Part shown: positions 37 through 46,027 of the stretch, piece after piece | Layout of the letters: each line of letters opens with the position of its first letter | Numbering within the stretch: the first letter of the stretch is position 1 | IMG/VR virus record: IMGVR_UViG_3300031707_004158 | Location: 1 to 46,027 of that record | Length of the DNA: 46,027 nt | Reading direction: 5' to 3' (one strand) | Source: a virus | Made by a program: the position numbers and the translations under genes | The notes under the pieces: generated by a model | Told to the model about the DNA's origin: nothing | Seen by the model: the letters and a program-made list of their open reading frames with translations, nothing else | The model's database searches: none

Positions 37-642
37 CTATTTGCGTACAACTTCGAACATTCCATGAGTACCACTTGATTTAGGAGCGAAAGGTCTCATT
101 TCTCCAAAACCACAATGAAAGCCCGCCAAATCAACAAGGTTAATCACCTGTTCAGCAGAGATATAATTTCCATTAAAAAGGATAGTGAATTCCATTTCCC
201 AGCTATCAAACTCACTTCTTATCCGCCAATCTATACTTCCGTTTGGAAGTCGTACAAAATCTTCTCTCATCTTCGGTTCAGAAGATTTTGTAAATGGGAC
301 AATATCGCCCATGATAAAGAAGGCCTTTTTCGCCATCGTCATAGGAAGGTCGGCTATATTAGCTGCACTAACCATAGCCTTCTTTAATGCAGGTGCAGGG
401 AATCCATAGGTTCCATTAACCCGATATAAGGATGCCTCAAATAGTTCTTTAGGATTCTTAGCCTCTTTTGACAATTTTGCCTGCTTCTGTTGCTTCTGTT
501 TGATTCCTTCCATCGCCTTTTCGCTCAGCCTATTGCAGATTAAAGAACTGCCAGGAAGATTTCTAATCCTCACCTTTAATGTGGTTCTTTGAACTGTTGG
601 AATATTGATCACCTTAGCCTGCTGCTCTTTTTTTGCTGCCAT
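37..642 (-). CDS. Conserved phage protein, possibly RAMP/Cas7-like, downstream of pentamer array A
   Basis: 201 aa, starting at ATG 642 behind AAGGAG. The N-terminus is basic; a beta strand (LKVRIRN, residues 22-28) is followed by a lysine/glutamine-rich helix (about 40-65). A motif YGFPAPALKKAMVSAA lies at 79-94. The C-terminus has a strand-helix element ending in a glycine-rich loop, GFGEMRP (178-184), then SGTHGMFEV. This order resembles the RRM-like fold of RAMP/Cas7 proteins, in which a PxxxLxxAxxxA helix and a late G-x-G loop contact nucleic acid. That is pattern inference, not a demonstrated homology. The gene is the last of the early cluster and its 5' spacer is a 33-unit pentamer array, so a nucleic-acid-binding role linked to the array is plausible. 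A phage single-strand annealing or binding protein is the alternative. Confidence 0.75.
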   Translation of the reverse strand: MAAKKEQQAKVINIPTVQRTTLKVRIRNLPGSSLICNRLSEKAMEGIKQKQQKQAKLSKEAKNPKELFEASLYRVNGTYGFPAPALKKAMVSAANIADLPMTMAKKAFFIMGDIVPFTKSSEPKMREDFVRLPNGSIDWRIRSEFDSWEMEFTILFNGNYISAEQVINLVDLAGFHCGFGEMRPFAPKSSGTHGMFEVVRK

Positions 643-665: not shown

Positions 666-830
666 TGCCTTACCGTACCTGATCAAACCGCATCCCGCCT
701 CATCATGCCCTGCCATACCAAATCCCACCACACCATACCTCGCCATACCTCATCGGAGCTTACCGCACCCCATCGCATCTCACCCCGCCCAACCAAACCT
801 CAGCGAGCCGGATCACACCGCACCTTATCA
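666..830 (-). repeat. Degenerate pentamer array A, 33 units
   Basis: Thirty-three uninterrupted 5-nt units fill the spacer between the 168-aa and 201-aa genes. On the plus strand each unit is N-R-Y-C-N. Position 4 is C in 33 of 33 units, position 2 is A or G in 33 of 33, and position 3 is C or T in 31 of 33. Positions 5 and 1 use all four bases. In the transcribed (minus) sense the unit is N-G-R-Y-N, most often NGGTN. The array starts on the TGA stop of the upstream gene (828-830) and ends 23 nt before the next start codon, just ahead of its ribosome site. It has no open frame that looks coding. Confidence 0.9.
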
Positions 831-1334
831 TGCATTAACTTGGGCAACCGCCCTGAATAGTGGCATAAGAGGCCTGAACTTCTTTAGCTTCTTGTATTGA
901 GAGTATCTCTTCTCCCAAGAAATGATCTCATTCTTCGCATTTTCCAAAACTATATCTAAATAGTTCTGATTTTCTCGCACATCGGCCAATGTGACATATC
1001 CTCTCTCTTTAGTTTTATCATCACTGTTAGCAATACTGATATTGTGGAATGCTTTGATTCGCTCCTCTGCACCGTCAACGACTTCGACAATTTCAATTTG
1101 GGAAAGAAGATATCTCGCCTGCCATTCCCGATATTTGTGACCTGCAATCTTGTCATCCCATTCAAAGAAATCATGAATAGGAGAAGATTTTGGTTTTGCC
1201 TTTTCAACAACAAAAGAAGTCTTTAGGACTTCTCCATTTTCTTCCTTTAACTTCCAAAGGAATTCTCCATATTCCTGGATTCTGTCCCTTTTGATGTTGC
1301 TGCCTATAGTTGCCTTAAAAATTCTTTTCTGCAT
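828..1334 (-). CDS. Conserved phage protein of unknown function, between the two pentamer arrays
   Basis: 168 aa from ATG 1334, chosen because GGGGGTGA lies 6 nt upstream; an in-frame GTG at 1343 overlaps that ribosome site. The protein has a charged N-terminus, then a distinctive block SPIHDFFEWDD followed by a YREWQARYLL helix. Next come a strand with AFHNISIA, a GYVTLADV segment and a C-terminal charged helix rich in aromatic, Lys and Arg residues. I recognise this domain order from uncharacterised temperate-phage proteins but know no function. It sits between arrays B and A and next to the 201-aa protein, so the two genes and their arrays look like one module. Its stop codon is part of the first unit of array A. 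Confidence 0.75.
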   Translation of the reverse strand: MQKRIFKATIGSNIKRDRIQEYGEFLWKLKEENGEVLKTSFVVEKAKPKSSPIHDFFEWDDKIAGHKYREWQARYLLSQIEIVEVVDGAEERIKAFHNISIANSDDKTKERGYVTLADVRENQNYLDIVLENAKNEIISWEKRYSQYKKLKKFRPLMPLFRAVAQVNA

Positions 1335-1359
1335 TCGTTTCACCCCCTTTAATTAAAGT

Positions 1360-1444
1360 TACCTTGCCAAACCGCACCTTACCGCAACTTACCCGACCAA
1401 ACCACGCCCAACCGAGCCGAACCGAACCACACCCCGTCATATCA
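1360..1444 (-). repeat. Degenerate pentamer array B, 17 units
   Basis: Seventeen uninterrupted 5-nt units with the same rule as array A: plus-strand position 4 is C in 17 of 17, position 2 is A or G in 17 of 17, position 3 is C or T in 16 of 17, and the two outer positions vary. It begins one base after the TAA stop of the HTH gene (1446-1448) and ends about 10 nt before the ribosome site of the 168-aa gene. Placement is therefore identical to array A: from stop codon to Shine-Dalgarno sequence, read on the minus strand. Confidence 0.9.
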
Positions 1445-2870: not shown

Positions 2871-3584
2871 ATGATATCAAAAGATAATATTCATGATATT
2901 TTTTTAAATGAATTAAAAAAGAAAGCATGGGAAAAACTTAAATTGGATCAAAACGATGATTGGGGAATACAAAAGGGCATTGCCAAACTCATCGGAGTAA
3001 CGCCTCAGACCGTGCAGTCTTGGTTCGACGAAGATAAAAATACTTTTCCGAATCCGCTATCTTTTATTAGGATTCATCAATTTTTAGATATCACTCCGAA
3101 TGAGCTTTTAGGCATCAATAGAGAAGAACATTTTCAGGTAGTCGAATCAGCCGCCTCTTATGATCTTGGAAATGAATTCATAACAGTCCCTCAAGTCACC
3201 GGAAAGATCAGTGCAGGTGGTGGCCTCGTTCCAGATAATACTGTCGAAATGAGAATTGCCTTCCGGAAAGATTGGATACAAGGAAAAGGAGAACCGAAAA
3301 ACATGTCACTGATTCGTGTCAGAGGAGACAGCATGGAACCCACACTCAGATCTGGGGATATCGTACTGGTAGACCATAGTCGCAATTATGTTGACCCTCA
3401 TGGTGGCATCTATGCAGTCGCGCTCCAAGAAGACATCATGTTGAAGCGTCTTCAAGCGATCTATCCTTCAAATCGTATTAGAATAATCAGCGACAATTCT
3501 AAATACGATCCAACTGAAGTAGATCCTGATAATTTAAAAATCAATGGTAAAGTTATATGGTTTGGTCGTGAGTTGGAAAGATGA
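2871..3584 (+). CDS. CI/LexA-type phage repressor with S24 self-cleavage domain
   Basis: 237 aa from ATG 2871. Longer in-frame starts run through the operator and read as non-coding. An N-terminal helix-turn-helix spans about 28-80 (IQKGIAKLIGVTPQTVQSW). The C-terminal S24 peptidase domain has the nucleophile Ser154 in GDSMEPT and the general base Lys192 in IMLKRL. The expected Ala-Gly cleavage site is A115-G116 in KISAGGG. Such repressors hold the prophage silent, and RecA-stimulated cleavage triggers induction after DNA damage. There is no clear Shine-Dalgarno sequence, so translation may be weak or from a short leader. It is the first of the rightward lysogeny genes that lead to the integrase. 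Confidence 0.93.
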   Translation: MISKDNIHDIFLNELKKKAWEKLKLDQNDDWGIQKGIAKLIGVTPQTVQSWFDEDKNTFPNPLSFIRIHQFLDITPNELLGINREEHFQVVESAASYDLGNEFITVPQVTGKISAGGGLVPDNTVEMRIAFRKDWIQGKGEPKNMSLIRVRGDSMEPTLRSGDIVLVDHSRNYVDPHGGIYAVALQEDIMLKRLQAIYPSNRIRIISDNSKYDPTEVDPDNLKINGKVIWFGRELER

Positions 3585-3610
3585 GATAACCAGATCCTTT
3601 GGAGGCAACG

Positions 3611-3937
3611 ATGTCAAATTATGTTGCATTTCTCCCTATGCTTGTGGTAGCAATTCTTTTTTTCTTTATTATCAAGTCGATGAAGAAAGCAAAGAGGTTA
3701 AAATCGAAAGAGTTTATCTGTGGAAATTGCGGCTATATCGGGAAAACTAAGAAAGCTACTAAGGGAAGCTTTTGGATCGAATTAGCCCTTTGGCTTTTCC
3801 TTATACTCCCCGGTCTAATTTATTCCATATGGAGAATAACCTCAAGACATTTCATTTGCCCGACCTGCGGCTCGCCAGAACTTATTCCCGTAGATTCCCC
3901 GCGTGGCAAGAAATTGATAAAGGAGGAATTCCCATGA
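3611..3937 (+). CDS. Membrane protein with two CxxC zinc-ribbon halves
   Basis: 108 aa, ATG 3611 with GGAGG 5 nt upstream. It has a transmembrane helix at about 6-22, a first CGNCG knuckle at about 38-42, a second transmembrane stretch (about 58-78), and a second CPTCG knuckle near residue 88. Pairing of the two CxxC motifs would fold a zinc ribbon on one membrane face. Placement just after the repressor, on the same strand, points to expression in the lysogen, for example in superinfection exclusion. That function is inferred from position only. Confidence 0.75.
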   Translation: MSNYVAFLPMLVVAILFFFIIKSMKKAKRLKSKEFICGNCGYIGKTKKATKGSFWIELALWLFLILPGLIYSIWRITSRHFICPTCGSPELIPVDSPRGKKLIKEEFP

Positions 3938-4002
3938 AGAAAAAACTAAATAAGATTACCAAGCCTTTAGCGACCAGCTACATCATCGGAAAAGTCGCCT
4001 GA
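3934..4002 (+). CDS. 22-aa peptide coupled to the zinc-ribbon membrane protein
   Basis: An ATG at 3934 overlaps the stop of the preceding gene (ATGA) and has AGGAGG 7 nt upstream, an unusually strong site. The product is a basic 22-residue peptide beginning MKKKLNKITK. It may be a real small protein, or the ribosome site may serve a leader function. Too short for any family assignment. Confidence 0.4.
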   Translation: MKKKLNKITKPLATSYIIGKVA

Positions 4003-4064
4003 TGGGAGGGAGGCAGGAGTGAAGTTTGATATCCTTAACAGAAAATAGCGAAAGGAGGAAAACC

Positions 4065-4499
4065 ATGAAAATAATCGCTATATCCATTTTGTTCTTTGTA
4101 TCGTTTTGCAGTATGGCATTTTCTGCGGGCGAAACTTTCAAGATAGAGACGACCGGGACCGAGTATTGCGGCGATTTCCTTTTTTCGAATTTCAGCGCCG
4201 GAAATAATGTGGACTTCTGGATTCGGGAGCAGAGTGAAGATGAAATCCTCGTCTCCTTCACGCCGGACTTCAAACACGGTACGACATTCTTCATTCATAT
4301 GACTTATTTTATGGCATCGAAAAATAAAACAGCTTTTGTCGGAGAGGTATTTTTTGAGGATGATTCCTGGCTTTCCATTTTCGGGAAATCGACACTGGAC
4401 AAGAACGGCATGGCCAAAAGCATCCAGGGGACATTCATCCAGAACGGGGTAATAAGGCCGGCCTGCTTCTCCTCGGGGACGTTCAAGACAGTCAAATGA
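4065..4499 (+). CDS. Secreted/periplasmic protein of unknown function
   Basis: 144 aa from ATG 4065, with AAAGGAGG upstream. A clear signal peptide (MKIIAISILFFVSFCSMAFS) is followed by a likely cleavage after AFSA. The mature part is about 120 aa, beta-rich, with two cysteines and many aromatic residues, and looks like a small beta-barrel or sandwich. No family is recognised. As part of the lysogeny-strand group it is probably a lysogenic-conversion gene acting outside the inner membrane. Confidence 0.75.
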   Translation: MKIIAISILFFVSFCSMAFSAGETFKIETTGTEYCGDFLFSNFSAGNNVDFWIREQSEDEILVSFTPDFKHGTTFFIHMTYFMASKNKTAFVGEVFFEDDSWLSIFGKSTLDKNGMAKSIQGTFIQNGVIRPACFSSGTFKTVK

Positions 4500-4541
4500 G
4501 CGGAATGGCGGTTTGAATATCGCCCGCAAATGTCCCCTAAG

Positions 4542-4555
4542 AAACATGCATGTTT
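4542..4555. promoter_or_regulatory. 14-bp perfect palindrome upstream of the lipoprotein gene
   Basis: AAACATGCATGTTT is perfectly self-complementary and lies 73 bp before the lipoprotein start, in the spacer that follows the secreted-protein gene. It could be a regulator-binding site; with the following T-rich bases it could also act as a weak terminator. Confidence 0.3.
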
Positions 4556-4627
4556 TTATGGCGGGAGTCTAGGTATGTATACTAATGTCTTTTCACTCAT
4601 TAAATCAAAAAAAGGAAGGGGGAGACT

Positions 4628-5314
4628 ATGAAAACAGGAATTGTTTTCTTTTGTTTCGTTTTATTTTTGGCTATAGGATGTGCCGAAATCCCGAGGTCAG
4701 CAACGTTCTCATATTCTTCTCAGCAACAACTGCAATCTGCAACTCATTGGCAAATTATTGCACAATTGACCACTGCCCGTTTATCTTCGGATCCAGATCT
4801 TCTCGATATTCTCAAACCTTATTCTGGTGGATCTCGCCGACGTATTCATGTTCAAACTTCCGATAAATCACCGTTTGATGAGGCCTTCCGAAAATATCTA
4901 ATAACAGAGCTAATTAATGCCCACTTCCTTCTTTCTGATACTCCCGATAATGCACCCGTAAGAATACACTGGGACCTTCAGTTAATAAGTTGTAATCCAG
5001 AACGACTGAAACCCCAAGGCTGGCCCGAAGCTGTTGCCGAAGCGTTGTGGGAATTCCTTTCCGGCACCAGGTGGACTAAAAGAGGTCTCATGGTCACACA
5101 TACGGAGCTTATTCTCACGACAAGGATCACAGTCGGAAAAGATTCCCCGGCACATATTATAAAGAGTTATTCTGATACTTTTTATATCAATGATGAGGAC
5201 TGGAATAACTATAACTATCAACTGGCTGCAAGTTCTGACTTTCCAAGAAGCATGACCAGTAAAGAAGAAACCTGGAGAAGGTGGGTTCTCTTCTGGAACT
5301 CTCAAAACCGTTAA
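4628..5314 (+). CDS. Lipoprotein of unknown function
   Basis: 228 aa, ATG 4628 behind GGAAGGGGGAG. The signal peptide ends in a lipobox LAIGC (lipidated Cys18), so the mature protein is membrane anchored. The body has a long helical segment (about 36-70), an alternating strand/helix part and a Trp-rich C-terminus. The region near 135-150 reads EALWEFLSGTRW. No family is recognised. It is among the lysogeny-strand genes between repressor and integrase, where phages often carry surface or exclusion proteins. Confidence 0.8.
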   Translation: MKTGIVFFCFVLFLAIGCAEIPRSATFSYSSQQQLQSATHWQIIAQLTTARLSSDPDLLDILKPYSGGSRRRIHVQTSDKSPFDEAFRKYLITELINAHFLLSDTPDNAPVRIHWDLQLISCNPERLKPQGWPEAVAEALWEFLSGTRWTKRGLMVTHTELILTTRITVGKDSPAHIIKSYSDTFYINDEDWNNYNYQLAASSDFPRSMTSKEETWRRWVLFWNSQNR

Positions 5315-5397
5315 AATAGAATAAGTAACAAAAGCGGTAAGATTCTGCTTAAGAAGGGGATTGAAGAACAAAAGGGGACGATTTAGGAAAGGACGGA

Positions 5398-5655
5398 TTG
5401 AAATCACAATTTGTGGGGTATGTTCCTACCATAGACGGGAAGAAGGCCAAGATGTGGCTTGAGACCGGATGGGATGAAAAGAATTTCGCATTCATTGTTA
5501 GGCTTAAACTGCTCGATCCTGATACCGGTCAACCCCTTGGATTGCCAGAGCCAAAGGATCAGCTTGAAACGATGGATGTTGGAGAAACTCAAAAGAATAA
5601 GGGCATCTCGAAAGAGATTCATAAATTGAGTAAAAATAAAAAGGGGCCGGAATAA
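5398..5655 (+). CDS. Small protein coupled to the integrase
   Basis: 85 aa with a TTG start at 5398, preceded by GGAAAGGA. Its TAA overlaps the integrase ATG (TAATG), a classic coupling. The N-terminal half (residues 3-45) reads as a small beta fold with W20, W25 and aromatic residues; the C-terminus is Lys-rich and probably disordered. Function is unknown. The coupling suggests co-production with the integrase, but it has no excisionase-like HTH. Confidence 0.6.
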   Translation: MKSQFVGYVPTIDGKKAKMWLETGWDEKNFAFIVRLKLLDPDTGQPLGLPEPKDQLETMDVGETQKNKGISKEIHKLSKNKKGPE

Positions 5656-6761
5656 TGGCCTCCATCCAGAAAATGTCAAGCCTCGGCCACCGGATCTACT
5701 GGAGGCTCTATTTCCCCGACGGAACATTCAAGGAAAAGTACAAGGCCTCCAAATCAAAGACCATCCTCAAGGAAATCCTTCCAGACGTAATGAAAATCGA
5801 GTCCCTATCGCGCCGTTGCGAACTCACGTCCCGGGATCTCATGAGGGCTTTAAATCTTGGCATTGTCAACAGAGATGAAATCAGCCGCTTCTCCGAACAG
5901 GTGGGGCCCATCGAGGATCATTATCTCTCGGAGTTACGGGCCGATTATGAAACGCAATCGAAGTCCCAATCCCCATCGATGCATGCCCACATGGCCAACC
6001 TTTACAAGGGCGACATCCTGGAGGAGCATTTCAAGGAGATCCCCATATCCAAGATCACGCCGGAAGGAATAGAGGCATTCAGGGCCAAAAGAAAAGCAAC
6101 AGTGGCCAATTCCACGATCAACCAGGACCTGAAGGCGCTGAGGAAGTACCTCGACACGGCGGTCAGCAAGGGTTGGATCAGGGAGAATCCGGCCCGCAAG
6201 CTCAAGCTCCTGAGAGAACCGAAATCAAGGATTCCGAGGTGTCTCTATCCCGATGAGCTGAAGGCTTTCTTTGCGGGGATGGCAAAATATGGCCATTGGC
6301 TCCATGGAGAGTTCGAATTCATCGTCCGCTCCCTCATCTATACTGGCCTGCGGCGCTCAGAGCTATGCAGCCTCAAACCAGAAAACATCAAGCTCCATCT
6401 CCGTCAGATTCATCTTATGGGCAAGGGGCAAAAACACAGGATAGTCGGGATCCACAGATCGCTGGTTAACGATCTTAAAAAGCGGGTTAAGCGGGGCTAT
6501 ATCATCAATCCCGCTACCAGGCCCGAATCCATCTCCCGGGCCTTTAAAAAAGTGATACGTGCCCTAAAACTTTCAGAGGTCTTGACCCTCCACTCACTTC
6601 GCCATACATATATCTCTTATCTTCTGCAAAAAGGCGTGCCGTCAAAGATCGTAAGGGAGAAAGCTGGTCATTTCAGCCTCGCCATCACCGACCGATACAC
6701 CCACGCCATTCCCACCGACATCATCGAGGAAGATGCCCTTGACTTCAACCACCAGGTATAG
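5655..6761 (+). CDS. int: Tyrosine-family site-specific integrase
   Basis: 368 aa, normal length for the family. Residues 1-75 form an arm-binding region (YWRLYFPDGTFKEKY), 100-185 a SAM-like core-binding domain, and 195-360 the catalytic domain. The catalytic set is visible: Arg233 in TGLRR, a Lys in GKGQKHR (257 or 260), His313 and Arg316 in HSLRHT, His339 in AGHF, and nucleophile Tyr348 in DRYTHA. It cuts and joins attP to attB. The tRNA-Glu fragment 142 bp downstream is the likely core site. It is the last rightward gene. Confidence 0.96.
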   Translation: MASIQKMSSLGHRIYWRLYFPDGTFKEKYKASKSKTILKEILPDVMKIESLSRRCELTSRDLMRALNLGIVNRDEISRFSEQVGPIEDHYLSELRADYETQSKSQSPSMHAHMANLYKGDILEEHFKEIPISKITPEGIEAFRAKRKATVANSTINQDLKALRKYLDTAVSKGWIRENPARKLKLLREPKSRIPRCLYPDELKAFFAGMAKYGHWLHGEFEFIVRSLIYTGLRRSELCSLKPENIKLHLRQIHLMGKGQKHRIVGIHRSLVNDLKKRVKRGYIINPATRPESISRAFKKVIRALKLSEVLTLHSLRHTYISYLLQKGVPSKIVREKAGHFSLAITDRYTHAIPTDIIEEDALDFNHQV

Positions 6762-6902
6762 CCAAATTAGAGCCAACATTCTACTTTTCAGTCATTTTTC
6801 GATTGAATTGTACATAATTTACAAAATGGAATCTTAGTCTTTGGAGATCCATCAAATAGGCCATTGGATTAGACTTTACTGATATTTTAGGGGATTTTTG
6901 GT

Positions 6903-6956
6903 TGGTGGTCCCAACGGGAGTCGAACCCGTGTTACCGACGTGAGAGGCCGGTGTCC
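6903..6956 (-). other. attP core: 3' part of tRNA-Glu(CUC)
   Basis: On the minus strand these 54 bp match the end of a tRNA-Glu gene. They include the anticodon stem CCGGC/GTCGG with loop CTCTCAC (anticodon CTC), the T arm with GTTCGA, the acceptor strand TGGGACC, discriminator A and encoded CCA. The 5' half (acceptor 5' strand and D arm) is absent; after GGACAC the sequence turns AT-rich and unrelated. A partial 3' tRNA next to an integrase gene is the signature of an attachment site that regenerates the host tRNA on integration. The rest of the 6762-7079 spacer is AT-rich, with no other feature seen. Confidence 0.9.
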
Positions 6957-7079
6957 ACTAAAATTTTATCTGTGTTAACAATATGTTAGATGCCATTATA
7001 ATCAAGATGTAGCCATTCTTACTATACTGATTATCTGATGTTTGAAATAATTGAAGGACATCTTATCTTCTCCTCCCCA

Positions 7080-7460
7080 TTAGGTCAACCCAGCGTTGAA
7101 TTTTTTGGCTTTCATAATATCTCTTTTTTGTTTTGCTTTTATCAATTCATTTCGCAATTCAGTTAAATTCCATTCTCTTTCTTTGCGATTTGTCCCACGT
7201 GGTTTTTCTGGAATAAAAAATAGATCATCTTCATTTCCAGATTTAACGAAATCCTTGAGATCATTTAGATGATCACGGTTCCAGAAATATGCCTTAGCTG
7301 CATCACCATATTTTAATTTAGAATGATGCCATTCCGATGGAGCAAGATTCTTTCTTAGCCAATTTTCAGAGATGCCTAAATATTCTGCTGCCTCTGGAGT
7401 CGTGAGCAAATCCTTATTAACTTTGGCTTGATGATAATTGATACTACCAAATTTCCCCAT
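7080..7460 (-). CDS. HTH protein next to attP, excisionase candidate
   Basis: 126 aa from ATG 7460, which overlaps the upstream stop (TGATG). LLTTPEAAEYLGISENWLRK (about residues 18-37) is an excisionase/HTH_17 pattern. The C-terminal half is highly charged, with Lys-rich helices. It lies directly across the attP core from the integrase, where recombination directionality factors are often found, and it is longer than most Xis proteins. A transcriptional role is the alternative. Confidence 0.7.
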   Translation of the reverse strand: MGKFGSINYHQAKVNKDLLTTPEAAEYLGISENWLRKNLAPSEWHHSKLKYGDAAKAYFWNRDHLNDLKDFVKSGNEDDLFFIPEKPRGTNRKEREWNLTELRNELIKAKQKRDIMKAKKFNAGLT

Positions 7461-28149: not shown

Positions 28150-28683
28150 TTATGACTCACCAAGCAGGGTATAGTCGAAGTACGGGGATTCAGGGTGATT
28201 TGCCGCATCGTTCAGACAGGTGAACTCGAATGCCATCGTACCCAGAGCGGTGTCGTCGATCAACCCCACGTCGCCAGTCGGTCTGAGTCTCACCTTCCAC
28301 GCCTGGAAGTGGTACTTCGGCCCCTGATCATTGGTCGGCCAGAGTTCAAGTTGTCCTTCAACCACCGCGGCCGTCATCCCATGAATTGAATAGCTTCCGA
28401 CTTCGCCGAAAAGTGCGATGCGAAGATTCTCCCTGTCGAACTCCTCAAGGGTAAACTTCCCGATGATCTTTTGGGAGACGGGGATGATGTCATCAAGCCT
28501 TTTTATGTTCTCCCGCGCCGTGTAGTGCTCGATCACCTCCTCGGTCGGGGTCAGGGCCATTGAGGGAACATTACCCAAATCCCTCAGTCCTGTCGGCAGT
28601 CCGTCGGCATCGAACCTGTCGAAGCTGACGATCCCCTTCCCGAGCCTCAGTAAACCCAAGTCGTGTGATTTTAGTTCTACCAT
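28150..28683 (-). CDS. Major tail protein
   Basis: 177 aa from ATG 28683 with AAGGAGG upstream; the longer frame to 28722 reads through the ribosome site. A beta-rich sandwich-like sequence (ELKSHDLGLLRLGKGIVSFD; GMTAAVVEGQLELWPTNDQG) with a conserved-looking C-terminal TLLGES. Position directly before the chaperones, and a dedicated strong ribosome site behind a terminator-like hairpin, fit the most abundant tail protein. Confidence 0.8.
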   Translation of the reverse strand: MVELKSHDLGLLRLGKGIVSFDRFDADGLPTGLRDLGNVPSMALTPTEEVIEHYTARENIKRLDDIIPVSQKIIGKFTLEEFDRENLRIALFGEVGSYSIHGMTAAVVEGQLELWPTNDQGPKYHFQAWKVRLRPTGDVGLIDDTALGTMAFEFTCLNDAANHPESPYFDYTLLGES

Positions 28684-28720
28684 TTTCTTGACCTCCTTTT
28701 TGATTTGGCCTACTTTGCCC

Positions 28721-28761
28721 AAAAGAAAAACCCGTCCCTCGCTCGTGCACGAGAAAACGGG
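28721..28761 (-). terminator. Terminator-like hairpin before the major tail protein gene
   Basis: On the minus strand a CCCGT/ACGGG stem (28757-28761 with 28731-28735) encloses a 12-bp palindrome CTCGTGCACGAG and is followed by TTTTTCTTTT. It lies after the neck genes and before the major tail gene, so it may attenuate upstream transcription or protect a separate tail transcript. Confidence 0.6.
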
Positions 28762-28782
28762 CTTTTCAATAACTTTGGGCTT

Positions 28783-28820
28783 ATCCCCAGTGACGTGGCC
28801 AACGTATGGGGATTTTTATT
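28783..28820 (+). terminator. Hairpin with T-tract reading on the plus strand
   Basis: ATCCCC (28783-28788) pairs with GGGGAT (28808-28813), followed by TTTTTATTT. As a terminator it would act on rightward transcripts, although no rightward gene is nearby. It lies back to back with the leftward hairpin at 28721-28761. Confidence 0.4.
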
Positions 28821-28858
28821 TAACTGCTAAATGATTCTTCTATATCCCCCTTCCCTTT

Positions 28859-29296
28859 CTAATAACTATATGGATTCCCGTAATTGTGCGCTATCATCAC
28901 CGCATATGTGGAGACCGCCATCCCCGCTCTGAACTCGTCGTCGTAATAGAGAATGTCGTCCCCCGTGCACTCAATCTTAACGCAAGGCTTGGTTCCCATA
29001 AGCGCCAAAAGCTTTACTTCTATATCCGCCTGCAAAGCCTCACCCACCACGTCAACACTATCCATGCCCGTCCTCTCTATCGATGTCTCCACCTGAAGAT
29101 CGAACTCAACAAATTGTACCCTATTGTCCCTCCTTTTCCGGGATGCGAAATAGGCGAACCTTATGAACGGAGCCTTGAAGTTATCTCTATCCGTGGGTAC
29201 GGTCGGTCTCCGCTGCACGTCATGACTCGATTCAATCACGGTCTTCAGAGCCGTCTCTACCATGTCCATGAATGCAGTCTTTGCGGGTTTTGCCAT
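28859..29296 (-). CDS. Tail terminator / neck protein
   Basis: 145 aa, taking ATG 29296 (GGAGGG 6 nt upstream) over TTG 29299. An alpha helix followed by strands (APFIRFAYFASRKRRDN; FVEFDLQVETSIERTG) resembles the gpU/minor-tail-protein fold. Gene order (after HK97 gp10-like, before the major tail protein) is that of the tail terminator. Confidence 0.7.
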   Translation of the reverse strand: MAKPAKTAFMDMVETALKTVIESSHDVQRRPTVPTDRDNFKAPFIRFAYFASRKRRDNRVQFVEFDLQVETSIERTGMDSVDVVGEALQADIEVKLLALMGTKPCVKIECTGDDILYYDDEFRAGMAVSTYAVMIAHNYGNPYSY

Positions 29297-42596: not shown

Positions 42597-43437
42597 ATGG
42601 AAAATCCCATCCTTTCAAAGCGCAGAGTTCCGTGATGATCTTCAAAAAGTTCTCCTTTGAGAAGACCCTCCTGTAATATTCGGCTCCCTCTATATCCAAG
42701 GGAGCGTCTATTTTCTGCCGTACCAACTCTGCTATGTCTGACGGAGAATCATCTGCCTCAACTGGATTACAGTAGGGAACAATTTCGGTATAAAAGACAT
42801 GGCGTCCCAGCATCTTCATTTCCACCACAGTCTGGCTGAGCCCGTCGTAGTGCATCAATCGGATGTGGACGGAGACCTTCCTGAATATACTCTCTCTCGC
42901 CTCATCCTCAATCCAGTCAAGATCAATGATGTTGTCCTGGAACTTTCCGTCAACAACCTTCTTCCCTTTGCCGTGGAGCATATAAATCGGGATGTCATGG
43001 ATCTGTTTGATGAATGCCTTAGACCGCTCAATATCTCTGGCCTTATGGTCCGTCAGATACATCAAGATTCCGGCGGGTCGCTCAATCCCAATGTCCAGGT
43101 TCGGCAAATATGGGGGAATCGGCAAAAAACACGGCGAGGATACTTTTTGTGATAGCTTGCCCACGAGCAGAGGGCTATCAGTCACATGCAGCGCATTGCC
43201 AAAATCGGCGCTTGCGTTTTTGTCTTCAACGAATAGTCTCGCATCCATGCCGGTCCAATAGCATATCTTAGGGATACGGTGGTACTTGTGAGCGAAACTA
43301 AGGTGCGCCGGCGCCATGTTGAAAAAGAAAAGGCCGTCAAACCTCCCCTCTGGTTTTAGGCATACCTCTATCCCAAACATTCGGTTCAGCCTTTTCGCAA
43401 AAACTGAATTGTCATATGAAACGATTTTCCAGATCAT
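42583..43437 (-). CDS. GT-B-type glycosyltransferase
   Basis: 284 aa from ATG 43437, overlapping the methyltransferase stop (ATGA). N-terminal part with FDGLFFFNMAPAHLSFAHKY and KICYWTGMDARLF. The C-terminal Rossmann part includes VHIRLMHYDGLSQTVVEMKM (about 191-210), with the E-x7-E-like region of GT4-type enzymes. It looks like a retaining transferase with UDP-sugar donor; family not certain. Confidence 0.7.
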   Translation of the reverse strand: MIWKIVSYDNSVFAKRLNRMFGIEVCLKPEGRFDGLFFFNMAPAHLSFAHKYHRIPKICYWTGMDARLFVEDKNASADFGNALHVTDSPLLVGKLSQKVSSPCFLPIPPYLPNLDIGIERPAGILMYLTDHKARDIERSKAFIKQIHDIPIYMLHGKGKKVVDGKFQDNIIDLDWIEDEARESIFRKVSVHIRLMHYDGLSQTVVEMKMLGRHVFYTEIVPYCNPVEADDSPSDIAELVRQKIDAPLDIEGAEYYRRVFSKENFLKIITELCALKGWDFPYGIV

Positions 43438-44003
43438 TTTTGCCACCTATAAAACCAGCTCTTCAGTTCCGGAACCTCGGTTTTGATTGCCGTGCCCAAC
43501 CCGGACATCGCCGCGAGTTCATCCATGATCTCATGGGTCAGCCTAAAGGTATGGCTCTTACTGTCTGGATCGGATTCTCCCTTGATGATGACAAACATCG
43601 CCAGTATTCCGCCCGATCTAAGAACCCGCACCATCTCCGAGAAAGCCTTCTCAAGATTCATGAAGTGAAAAAGGGAGGCAATGGAGATCACGTAATCAAA
43701 ACTCTCATCACCAAAAGGAATATCCTCCGCGACCCCTTCCTTGATATTTGGAGTATCTATTCCCGGTTTGGGATCCACCCCGAAATATTCTATATCGGGC
43801 GGCAGGCAATTCCTTACGGCCCCATCGGCACATCCAACATCCAAGACTTTTGAGCCTGTAGGGATTTCAAGAATTCCAAGCGCCTTTGTGTAGCTATCCC
43901 CTCCAAAGGAGCAGGGGTTCTTCTTTCTCCATTTGTCAAGCTCGATCATTTTGGATCTCCAAATTAGGTCAGTAACCCAGTATCTTCGCTCCGGTTTGGC
44001 CAT
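43434..44003 (-). CDS. SAM-dependent methyltransferase
   Basis: 189 aa from ATG 44003 with GGGGAAG 9 nt upstream. Motif I is KVLDVGCADGA (about 51-61), motif II includes YFGVDPKPG, and motif IV is FDYVISIASLFHF. The C-terminal beta strand LAMFVIIKGES is the usual post-motif region. Substrate unknown; sugar methylation is plausible next to the transferases. Confidence 0.85.
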   Translation of the reverse strand: MAKPERRYWVTDLIWRSKMIELDKWRKKNPCSFGGDSYTKALGILEIPTGSKVLDVGCADGAVRNCLPPDIEYFGVDPKPGIDTPNIKEGVAEDIPFGDESFDYVISIASLFHFMNLEKAFSEMVRVLRSGGILAMFVIIKGESDPDSKSHTFRLTHEIMDELAAMSGLGTAIKTEVPELKSWFYRWQK

Positions 44004-44018
44004 TGCGGTCAACTTCCC

Positions 44019-44642
44019 CTAAAGATTTTTCCTGAAGACAAAAAGAACATGATCTTCCCCCGTTCGGTCGAAGTCGTTAACGATCTTCTCGCTTTCGACC
44101 CGGAATTCGGGGAAGAATATCATGTAATCCTTCGGCCTCCTGAACCAGATGTGGACCTTGTCCTCTTGCCATGTCGATATATTCTCGTATATGACCAGGG
44201 GAGATCCCCCTTTCAGCACCCGGCTTATTTCGTCACATATCCCGTTGATCTCCGTCGGAGGAATATGCTGAAGGACCGTCCATGAAAAACATCCCTCAAA
44301 AAACTCATTTCCATACGGAATTGTCCTACCGTCATATACTTTGAAATCGCATTTCGGACTTCTTGTTCTTGCCTTCCCGATCGCCCACTCCGATATGTCT
44401 ACCCCGTGGACATGAGAGCAGAATTGGGAAAGCATCGCGGAAAACCTTCCCACCCCCGACCCGAAATCGAGCACCCGTCTGCCAATGAATATCGGATCAA
44501 TGATCGCCTTTGCCAAATCAATCGACTCCTCGGTCTTTTTGGAGAATTGCTCTATAGTAAAGGAATTGCACCCAACCGTCTTGTCTCTTTGCTTGCCGTA
44601 TCGATCATCCCAATACTGTTGGGTTGGATAAACTATCATCAT
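44019..44642 (-). CDS. SAM-dependent methyltransferase
   Basis: 207 aa, ATG 44642, overlapping the 48-aa gene stop. Motif I RVLDFGSGVGRFS (about 55-67), motif II VHGVDISEWAIG, motif IV GCFSWTVLQHIPP, typical of class I methyltransferase type 11 or 25. N-terminal ribosome coupling to the 48-aa protein. Together with the 189-aa protein it gives two adjacent methyltransferases. Confidence 0.85.
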   Translation of the reverse strand: MMIVYPTQQYWDDRYGKQRDKTVGCNSFTIEQFSKKTEESIDLAKAIIDPIFIGRRVLDFGSGVGRFSAMLSQFCSHVHGVDISEWAIGKARTRSPKCDFKVYDGRTIPYGNEFFEGCFSWTVLQHIPPTEINGICDEISRVLKGGSPLVIYENISTWQEDKVHIWFRRPKDYMIFFPEFRVESEKIVNDFDRTGEDHVLFVFRKNL

Positions 44643-44785
44643 TTCCTTTCGTTCTTTTCAAAAAAATCCTGCCAAGCCAGCCCCATCGCGTGCTTGTCGC
44701 CCCTCCTATCGATGGGAGGATTGTTCTTTTTGGGTTTCCGCTTTCTTGGGATTCCCCAGTTAATCATCCTTCTCTCGATGGTCAT
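44639..44785 (-). CDS. 48-aa basic protein in the sugar operon
   Basis: ATG 44783-44785 overlaps the upstream transferase stop; its TGA (44639-44641) overlaps the next ATG (44640-44642). The peptide is basic in the middle (GIPRKRKPKKNNPPIDRRGD), with a short C-terminal helix MGLAWQDFFEK. Both junctions are ATGA couplings, so it is probably a real gene. Function unknown. Confidence 0.7.
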   Translation of the reverse strand: MTIERRMINWGIPRKRKPKKNNPPIDRRGDKHAMGLAWQDFFEKNERK

Positions 44786-45900
44786 AGAATCTTTTCAATC
44801 TCCTTCCAAAATTGATATGGGGCAGCTTTTAGCCATGCCCTTAATCCTTCGACATCCGTCAAATCTTTTCCCCACGACATATGGCCCGACCTCTCGCTCG
44901 ATACGATTTTACATCCAGCAAGGGCTGCCTCAAATATCACCCGCTCTCCGGCCCCCCATCCATCGAGGAGATGGACAAGACATTCGAATGCGGAGTATAT
45001 TTTGGGCATCTCCTCATATGGAACCATATTTCTCTGTTTAACATTCGCACCGTGAACCACTCCGCCGTTACCAGCAAGAACCGTGAAATCCATCCCGGTA
45101 TGCTCATCAATATAGTCTTGGAGTCTTGTCCACTTTTTGAAATTCCTGAGGTTGCAGATCAAAGCTGTATTGGGCCGCCTCTCGATCCCATCGACCGGCC
45201 TGAATATCTCCGTGTCAATCGCCAGAGGAAAAGCGATCCCATCACAACCAAGAGCCTTCCGATGATTTCCAAGATGAACAGGCGAAAGAAATATATTTTG
45301 TGCAGAGTTCTGGAATAGCTTCCTTGAGAACTCCGGCCTGTCGAGCTCCCGATGGTCGTGCTCGTATTTGACATACGGTTTCCTGTCCGAGTAAATCGTC
45401 TTCAAGATGATCGCCATTTGGGCCTGGCTGAAACTCCAGATGTTGTTGAGGATAATGATGTCCGCCCCGGCAAGCGTCCGCCTAAGTAGCTCCGTGTCCG
45501 ATTGCGGCGTCAGCACCTTGATATCGAACCCGCAATCCGTGCCAACACGGATCACAAGTTCGTTGCTGATCTCGGCCCCGCCCCTAATCCACGAGTCCTG
45601 AACCCATCCCACCGTCTTTTTTTTTATCCCTTTGGTCTCGTAAGTCTGTGGACTGGATACATCCGCACTTGTGAGCGTCCTATCCGACATGCTCCTGGGT
45701 CGCTCGGGTTCCATCACCTGCGTCTCATAGGTTTGTTTCCCCCGCCTGAAGATCCTCCACTTCCCGTGGGCCTCTCCGAGCAGCGCCCGCTCGATGCTCA
45801 TCCAATCCTTGGCGTTCCGGTAGCCCGGGAGAAGATGTTCGATCAGCACCATACTCTTGTCATCGGTGGTGACCATATCATGTAGAAGTTCCTTGTTCAT
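44782..45900 (-). CDS. Glycosyltransferase, GT4-like
   Basis: 372 aa from ATG 45900; the longer frame to 45921 reads over the preceding gene's stop. N-terminal 90 residues are a charged extra region. A GWVQDSWIRGGAEISNEL block marks the Rossmann start of GT4-type enzymes (GGAE). The end has LVHLLDGWGAGERVIFEAALAG (split here at GWGAGERVIFEAAL), the E-x7-E acceptor/donor motif. Donor unknown. Confidence 0.82.
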   Translation of the reverse strand: MNKELLHDMVTTDDKSMVLIEHLLPGYRNAKDWMSIERALLGEAHGKWRIFRRGKQTYETQVMEPERPRSMSDRTLTSADVSSPQTYETKGIKKKTVGWVQDSWIRGGAEISNELVIRVGTDCGFDIKVLTPQSDTELLRRTLAGADIIILNNIWSFSQAQMAIILKTIYSDRKPYVKYEHDHRELDRPEFSRKLFQNSAQNIFLSPVHLGNHRKALGCDGIAFPLAIDTEIFRPVDGIERRPNTALICNLRNFKKWTRLQDYIDEHTGMDFTVLAGNGGVVHGANVKQRNMVPYEEMPKIYSAFECLVHLLDGWGAGERVIFEAALAGCKIVSSERSGHMSWGKDLTDVEGLRAWLKAAPYQFWKEIEKIL

Positions 45901-45913
45901 CGTTTTCTCTTTT

Positions 45914-46027
45914 TCAGACAAATTGTCTCTGTGATTCTGAAGTTTTGTACTCCATAAATTTCCTGGCGTTTAACCTCATCCACGCCAGAAAGGTGCTATG
46001 AGAAAGGAGATGATGATTGCCTTCTAT
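45914..46027 (-). CDS. 3' end of an upstream gene (partial)
   Basis: 37 codons before the TGA at 45914-45916 are open to the window edge and read as a helical C-terminus (FLAWMRLNARKFMEYKTSES). It is 13 nt before the GT4-like gene start, so the same operon continues beyond the window. The fragment resembles the end of a surface-polysaccharide transferase but is too short for a call. Confidence 0.55.
   Translation of the reverse strand: MEGNHHLLSHSTFLAWMRLNARKFMEYKTSESQRQFV

Follow-up and report, generated by a model that had tools for sequence, protein, structure and literature searches.

Intergenic arrays of non-copy GRYNN pentamers beside a Vipr homologue very probably encode VIPR guides in a temperate tailed phage

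We are highly confident that two arrays of pentameric units in the early region of a temperate tailed phage (IMG/VR record IMGVR_UViG_3300031707_004158, positions 1 to 46,027; this whole stretch of 46,027 nucleotides is hereafter the window) are guide-coding regions (vrRNAs) of a VIPR system, because the family of the adjacent 201-aa protein matches the Vipr protein of Escherichia phage SUSP1 and the arrays match the published vrRNA rule. VIPR (Viral Interference Programmable Repeat; bioRxiv 2026.04.26.720920 / PMC13142463) comprises Vipr, an ancestral RAMP protein, and vrRNAs of 9-16 GGY/NN units. The NN dinucleotides recognize DNA with one base skipped, the skipped base lying on the wobble position, and competing phages and satellites are repressed (PMC13142463). 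Expression of vrRNAs and their co-purification with Vipr have been shown for the SUSP1 and P. fulva systems, and the 1-nt skip rule and target repression for SUSP1 (PMC13142463). A literature search on pentanucleotide repeats returned no such element, and VIPR was reached through the PDB name 'Vipr'; the opinion of the sequence-only reading that no described element follows this rule is superseded by PMC13142463.

The mechanism that we propose for this phage is carried over from SUSP1 (PMC13142463) by analogy. Minus-strand transcription would cover both arrays as well as the 171-aa gene and vipr. On this RNA the single-domain RAMP protein Vipr would polymerize, each subunit occupying one 5-nt unit, gripping its constant G-R-Y triplet and leaving the NN exposed. 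The dinucleotides would jointly base-pair with the double-stranded DNA of a competitor, either a phage or a satellite, one target base being skipped between dinucleotides, and this pairing would block transcription of the competitor. We found no promoter-like site on the strand of the arrays within positions 1-2500.

Array A occupies positions 665-829 on the minus strand and consists of 33 in-phase GRYNN units. The pattern of 33 back-to-back pentamers had been recognized correctly from the letters alone, albeit with coordinates one base off (666-830). The first position is G in all 33 units, the second is G in 22, A in nine and C in two, and the third is always a pyrimidine (T in 26, C in seven). 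The fourth (G15/A10/T5/C3) and fifth (A10/T9/C8/G6) positions are free. The units are not copies of one another, since Tandem Repeats Finder does not call the array as one repeat, and a simple tandem repeat was rejected on these grounds, as the earlier reading had held. A coding role, which that reading also denied, was set aside, since the 5-nt period is a poor match to codons and the 75-aa plus-strand open reading frame across the array belongs to a set of 200 ORFs called mechanically.

This periodicity is far outside what shuffling yields. The longest in-phase R.C run (the plus-strand form) reached six units in 2000 dinucleotide-preserving shuffles of the region and eight in 60 shuffles of the whole window, against 33 in array A, so that the proposal that shuffled sequences might match the phase statistics is not borne out. 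The five-phase information of the array is 114.5 bits, compared with 9.4 ± 3.8 (maximum 27.8) in shuffles, and when 80-nt segments of the contig are ranked by 5-periodicity, array B and the two halves of array A take the first three places. Departures from GGY in array A fall at the middle base in 11 of 11 cases and never at the other two constant positions (p ~5.6e-6 if random); the constraint therefore lies on the G and the pyrimidine.

The minus-strand order of the locus is a 62-aa HTH gene, array B, the 171-aa gene, array A and vipr. Array B (1359-1443, minus strand), which lies upstream of the 171-aa gene and is predicted to be a second vrRNA, has 17 GNYNN units, of which 14 are GGY, and it follows the GRYNN rule of array A save for one unit (GTT). 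An AT-rich TTAATTAAAGG-like segment is common to its 3' side and to the related locus L003, with a similar segment in L004. At one end array A overlaps the 171-aa stop codon, and at the other it stops just short of the AAAGGAG ribosome site of the 201-aa gene, about 22 nt from the vipr ATG, in agreement with the earlier description of a tract running from one gene's stop codon to the next gene's ribosome site. Elsewhere in the window, a sub-threshold match to a tmRNA 3' end lies beside the integrase (6903-6956, minus strand) and is likely an attachment site in ssrA. Near the right end, two adjacent SAM-dependent methyltransferase-like genes (43434-44642) are followed by a weak glycosyltransferase-like gene (44782-45921).

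The 201-aa protein (phrog_4652; 37-642, minus strand) is by profile and predicted fold a homologue of SUSP1 Vipr with a Csm3/RAMP-like fold, and is the predicted vrRNA-binding subunit. A profile of 90 family members matches PDB 36pp, 'SUSP1 Vipr protein', at E=1.2e-35, the protein of the window as a single sequence does so at E=0.0015, and the profile also matches Csm5 weakly (E=0.011). The AlphaFold2 model (pLDDT 95.1) retrieves Csm3-type RAMP subunit chains in Foldseek at E ~1e-5. Conversely, the family HMM finds a SUSP1 gene at 28474-29061 (6.5e-37), and SUSP1 vipr is flanked on both sides by GGYNN arrays. No usable name for Vipr came from Pfam or NCBIfam. Two ideas of the sequence-only reading are supported: that array A is a periodic track bound by a filament-forming protein such as the RAMP-like neighbour, which is a Vipr protein related by profile to that of SUSP1, and that variation is stored in a fixed frame, which agrees with the published vrRNA rule.

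The 171-aa gene (phrog_15946; 828-1343, minus strand; 168 aa from an inner ATG at 1334) is annotated here as a putative vipr-accessory gene from its linkage to vipr. Among the relatives, 18 loci contain it, and in 17 of these vipr lies within the same stretch; in the exception, L003, a distant Vipr lies elsewhere in the record with no array beside it. Among cultured phage records, 33 have vipr and 33 have the 171-aa family, with identical genus counts (27 Mycobacterium, five Gordonia and one cyanophage). In Donkeykong, Pipp, Cy-LDV1 and ODay (L246-L249), cultured Mycobacterium and Gordonia phages and one cyanophage genome, both genes are present as hypothetical proteins with GGYNN arrays. The family has a conserved motif around HxxFEWDDxxA. 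Its predicted fold is of high confidence (pLDDT 91.8); a fold search with this model gave no significant match, winged-helix hints remaining below significance, and comparison with the gene next to vipr in SUSP1, which we take to be vap1, gave no similarity. It is a candidate accessory gene of one supported Vipr clade (23 rows, 100/99).

The same DNA rule recurs widely. Four IMG/VR relatives of the 171-aa gene (L003-L006) all carry GGYNN tracts at their loci, and the 5-nt periodicity whose absence from relatives would have counted against the element is therefore present in them, as it is at the loci recovered by rule alone. When IMG/VR was scanned for runs of 14 GRY units, at least 120 viral stretches were returned, nearly all of them non-copy arrays of GGCNN, GGTNN or GACNN with free NN. 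The association with Vipr is specific: a homologue of the 201-aa protein was found within the fetched stretch, among the matches listed, at 85 of 106 viral loci with non-copy arrays, and elsewhere in the record for two more, whereas the 71 control viral loci, retrieved with unrelated patterns, had none. Moreover, phrog_4652 accounts for 38 of the 106 ORFs directly downstream of arrays. On the sense strand, arrays precede ORFs with a Shine-Dalgarno site and ATG in 96 of 266 cases, compared with eight of 266 in the antisense control. In cellular genomes, a scan for 15 consecutive GGY units gave 119 matches, 114 of which are simple tandem repeats; the remaining five diverse loci (L135, L138, L181, L208 and L234) all have Vipr.

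The relatives also display variation of their own. GAC takes the place of GGC or GGT in the arrays of L022, L037, L050, L076, L086, L087, L100, L108 and L125. The GACNN class requires seven changes on the Vipr tree, at least five of them forced by supported branches, and a single origin of the GGC, GGT and GAC classes was rejected in favour of repeated switching, the GA class alone being weakly clustered. In L007, L018, L032 and L036, hairpin-like spacers recur between arrays of about 14 units, as though every guide came with a processing or terminator element of its own. Nineteen loci have non-copy GRYNN arrays with no detectable Vipr in the record (for example L015:9846-9915, L084 on the minus strand and L095, where the array starts at 7348), and in several of these a strong hairpin comes directly after the array, resembling the layout of standalone small RNAs. 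They may be orphan vrRNAs, decoys, trans-acting guides or partners of very divergent Viprs.

A guide function predicts that NN content should resemble coding DNA read two bases in three. Across 366 arrays, the dinucleotides are best fitted by codon positions 1-2 with both strands mixed (logL -15349), ahead of uniform (-15399), genome-wide dinucleotide (-15466) and other codon-phase models (2-3, -15505; 3-1, -16199). This fit agrees with PMC13142463, because one wobble base is skipped there; array A alone favours the sense codon phase by about 4-5 nats. Between Vipr pairs that are 77-94% identical, NN has changed while the GRY positions are largely kept, as emerged when close relatives were compared in the way the earlier reading had advised. 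Best-offset NN identity is 0.55 in these pairs versus 0.47 in random pairs, a small excess that may come from the larger array numbers of the close pairs.

The NNx target form predicted for array A begins AANGCNGTNCC. Four 8-unit gapped seeds for arrays A and B retrieved 71 loci in IMG/VR, with flanks at chance level save for one weak candidate, and peptide-style searches found no target. The candidate pairs 23 of 24 NN bases of array A units 22-33 with codon positions 1-2 of an ORF in the identical contigs L294, L299 and L301; we do not claim it, since we estimate the chance of an accidental match at a few percent over all seeds. A small all-against-all guide-target search among the fetched loci gave no significant excess at any skip length, and the 1-nt skip did not clearly exceed either shuffled guides or the other skips.

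Other explanations of array A can be weighed against these data. It is conceivable, though very improbable, that the array is an autoregulatory leader, with the RAMP-like protein binding its own mRNA to control translation and the NN bases carrying no information. The ribosome site of vipr or of the accessory gene is indeed often directly preceded by an array. Many relatives' arrays, however, sit downstream of both genes or form several tracts; a leader also leaves aside the turnover of NN beside a conserved protein and its codon-phase composition, and in SUSP1 the vrRNAs guide DNA binding (PMC13142463). Still harder to credit is a two-tier G-quadruplex or unstructured translation spacer of G-rich repeats, both of which the sequence-only reading had entertained. 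Most relatives do have GG at a 5-nt pitch, but what is conserved is G-x-Y rather than GG: a third of array A units (11 of 33) have A or C in place of the second G with the pyrimidine intact throughout, and in other phages there are arrays made wholly of GACNN, which could not stack as GG tiers. The specific link of the arrays to Vipr also speaks against the quadruplex and the hypervariable spacer, neither of which is supported.

It is unlikely, if somewhat less so, that array A is a degraded relic of a VIPR array that has fallen out of use. One third of its units break GGY, it lacks phase resets or a clear tail, and a sister phage has deleted the cassette. Against decay, every departure falls on the middle base and none on the other 66 constant positions, and array B keeps GGY in 14 of its 17 units; vipr and the 171-aa gene are, moreover, intact with high-confidence predicted folds. 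The sister phage, L002, is 99.8-100% identical to the window where aligned. It lacks 128-1859, comprising the 62-aa gene, array B, the 171-aa gene, array A and most of vipr, and the deletion is bounded by two plus-strand copies of the 9-bp direct repeat AAGCCCGCC (119-127, at the junction, and 1851-1859), one of which is kept. Separately, L002 lacks most of 2912-7025, the repressor and integrase region. Because L002 has deleted it, the cassette seems dispensable, at least in a derivative also without lysogeny genes, and subject to possible misassembly.

Returning to VIPR as the preferred reading, the locus shares with SUSP1 a Vipr RAMP homologue, intergenic arrays of constant triplets and hypervariable NN, a small adjacent gene and a phage genome as host. 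The triplet is GGY in SUSP1 whereas array A is GRY; reported vrRNAs have 9-16 units, whereas array A has 33 in phase and array B has 17. One array precedes each gene here, in contrast to one upstream and three downstream in SUSP1, and the SUSP1 gene taken as vap1 is dissimilar to the 171-aa gene. No evident structured 3' tail like the pseudoknot of SUSP1 was seen after array A. The predicted fold recalls RAMP subunits of Class 1 CRISPR systems (Csm3/Cas7, Csm5), in which the guide is read as five of six contiguous bases, unlike the dinucleotide per 5 nt proposed here; the early-region genes scanned and the tandem repeats showed nothing recognizable as CRISPR repeats, cas genes or spacer acquisition. 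In TRAP-type RNA binding, 11 NAG repeats are spaced about 5 nt apart. The short constant triplet at a 5-nt pitch on RNA is similar, but here the fold is RAMP, the triplet GRY and the units far more numerous.

What is unusual about this phage is the relaxed middle base, the 33 in-phase units and the natural relative that has lost the cassette. We do not claim the GRY and GACNN variation as new, because PMC13142463 mentions 'a related consensus' beside GGY. It is tempting to speculate, and we do so tentatively, that Vipr here reads a relaxed G-R-Y frame and that array A is either a single guide of unusual length or two to three guides that overlap with no phase reset between them; in several relatives of the same clade, tracts of about 7-16 units are split by one 4-nt unit, and array A has no such reset. 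If true, the VIPR triplet code would be evolvable and guide length not limited to 16 units.

Taken together, these findings make the VIPR guide code recognizable from raw sequence and very widespread, a one-line DNA rule sufficing to retrieve the viral contigs described above. The locus adds a clade with an uncharacterized accessory family, a relaxed triplet, an unusually long array and a natural cassette-loss mutant, and the cultured Mycobacterium and Gordonia phages with the same protein pair are possible test systems.
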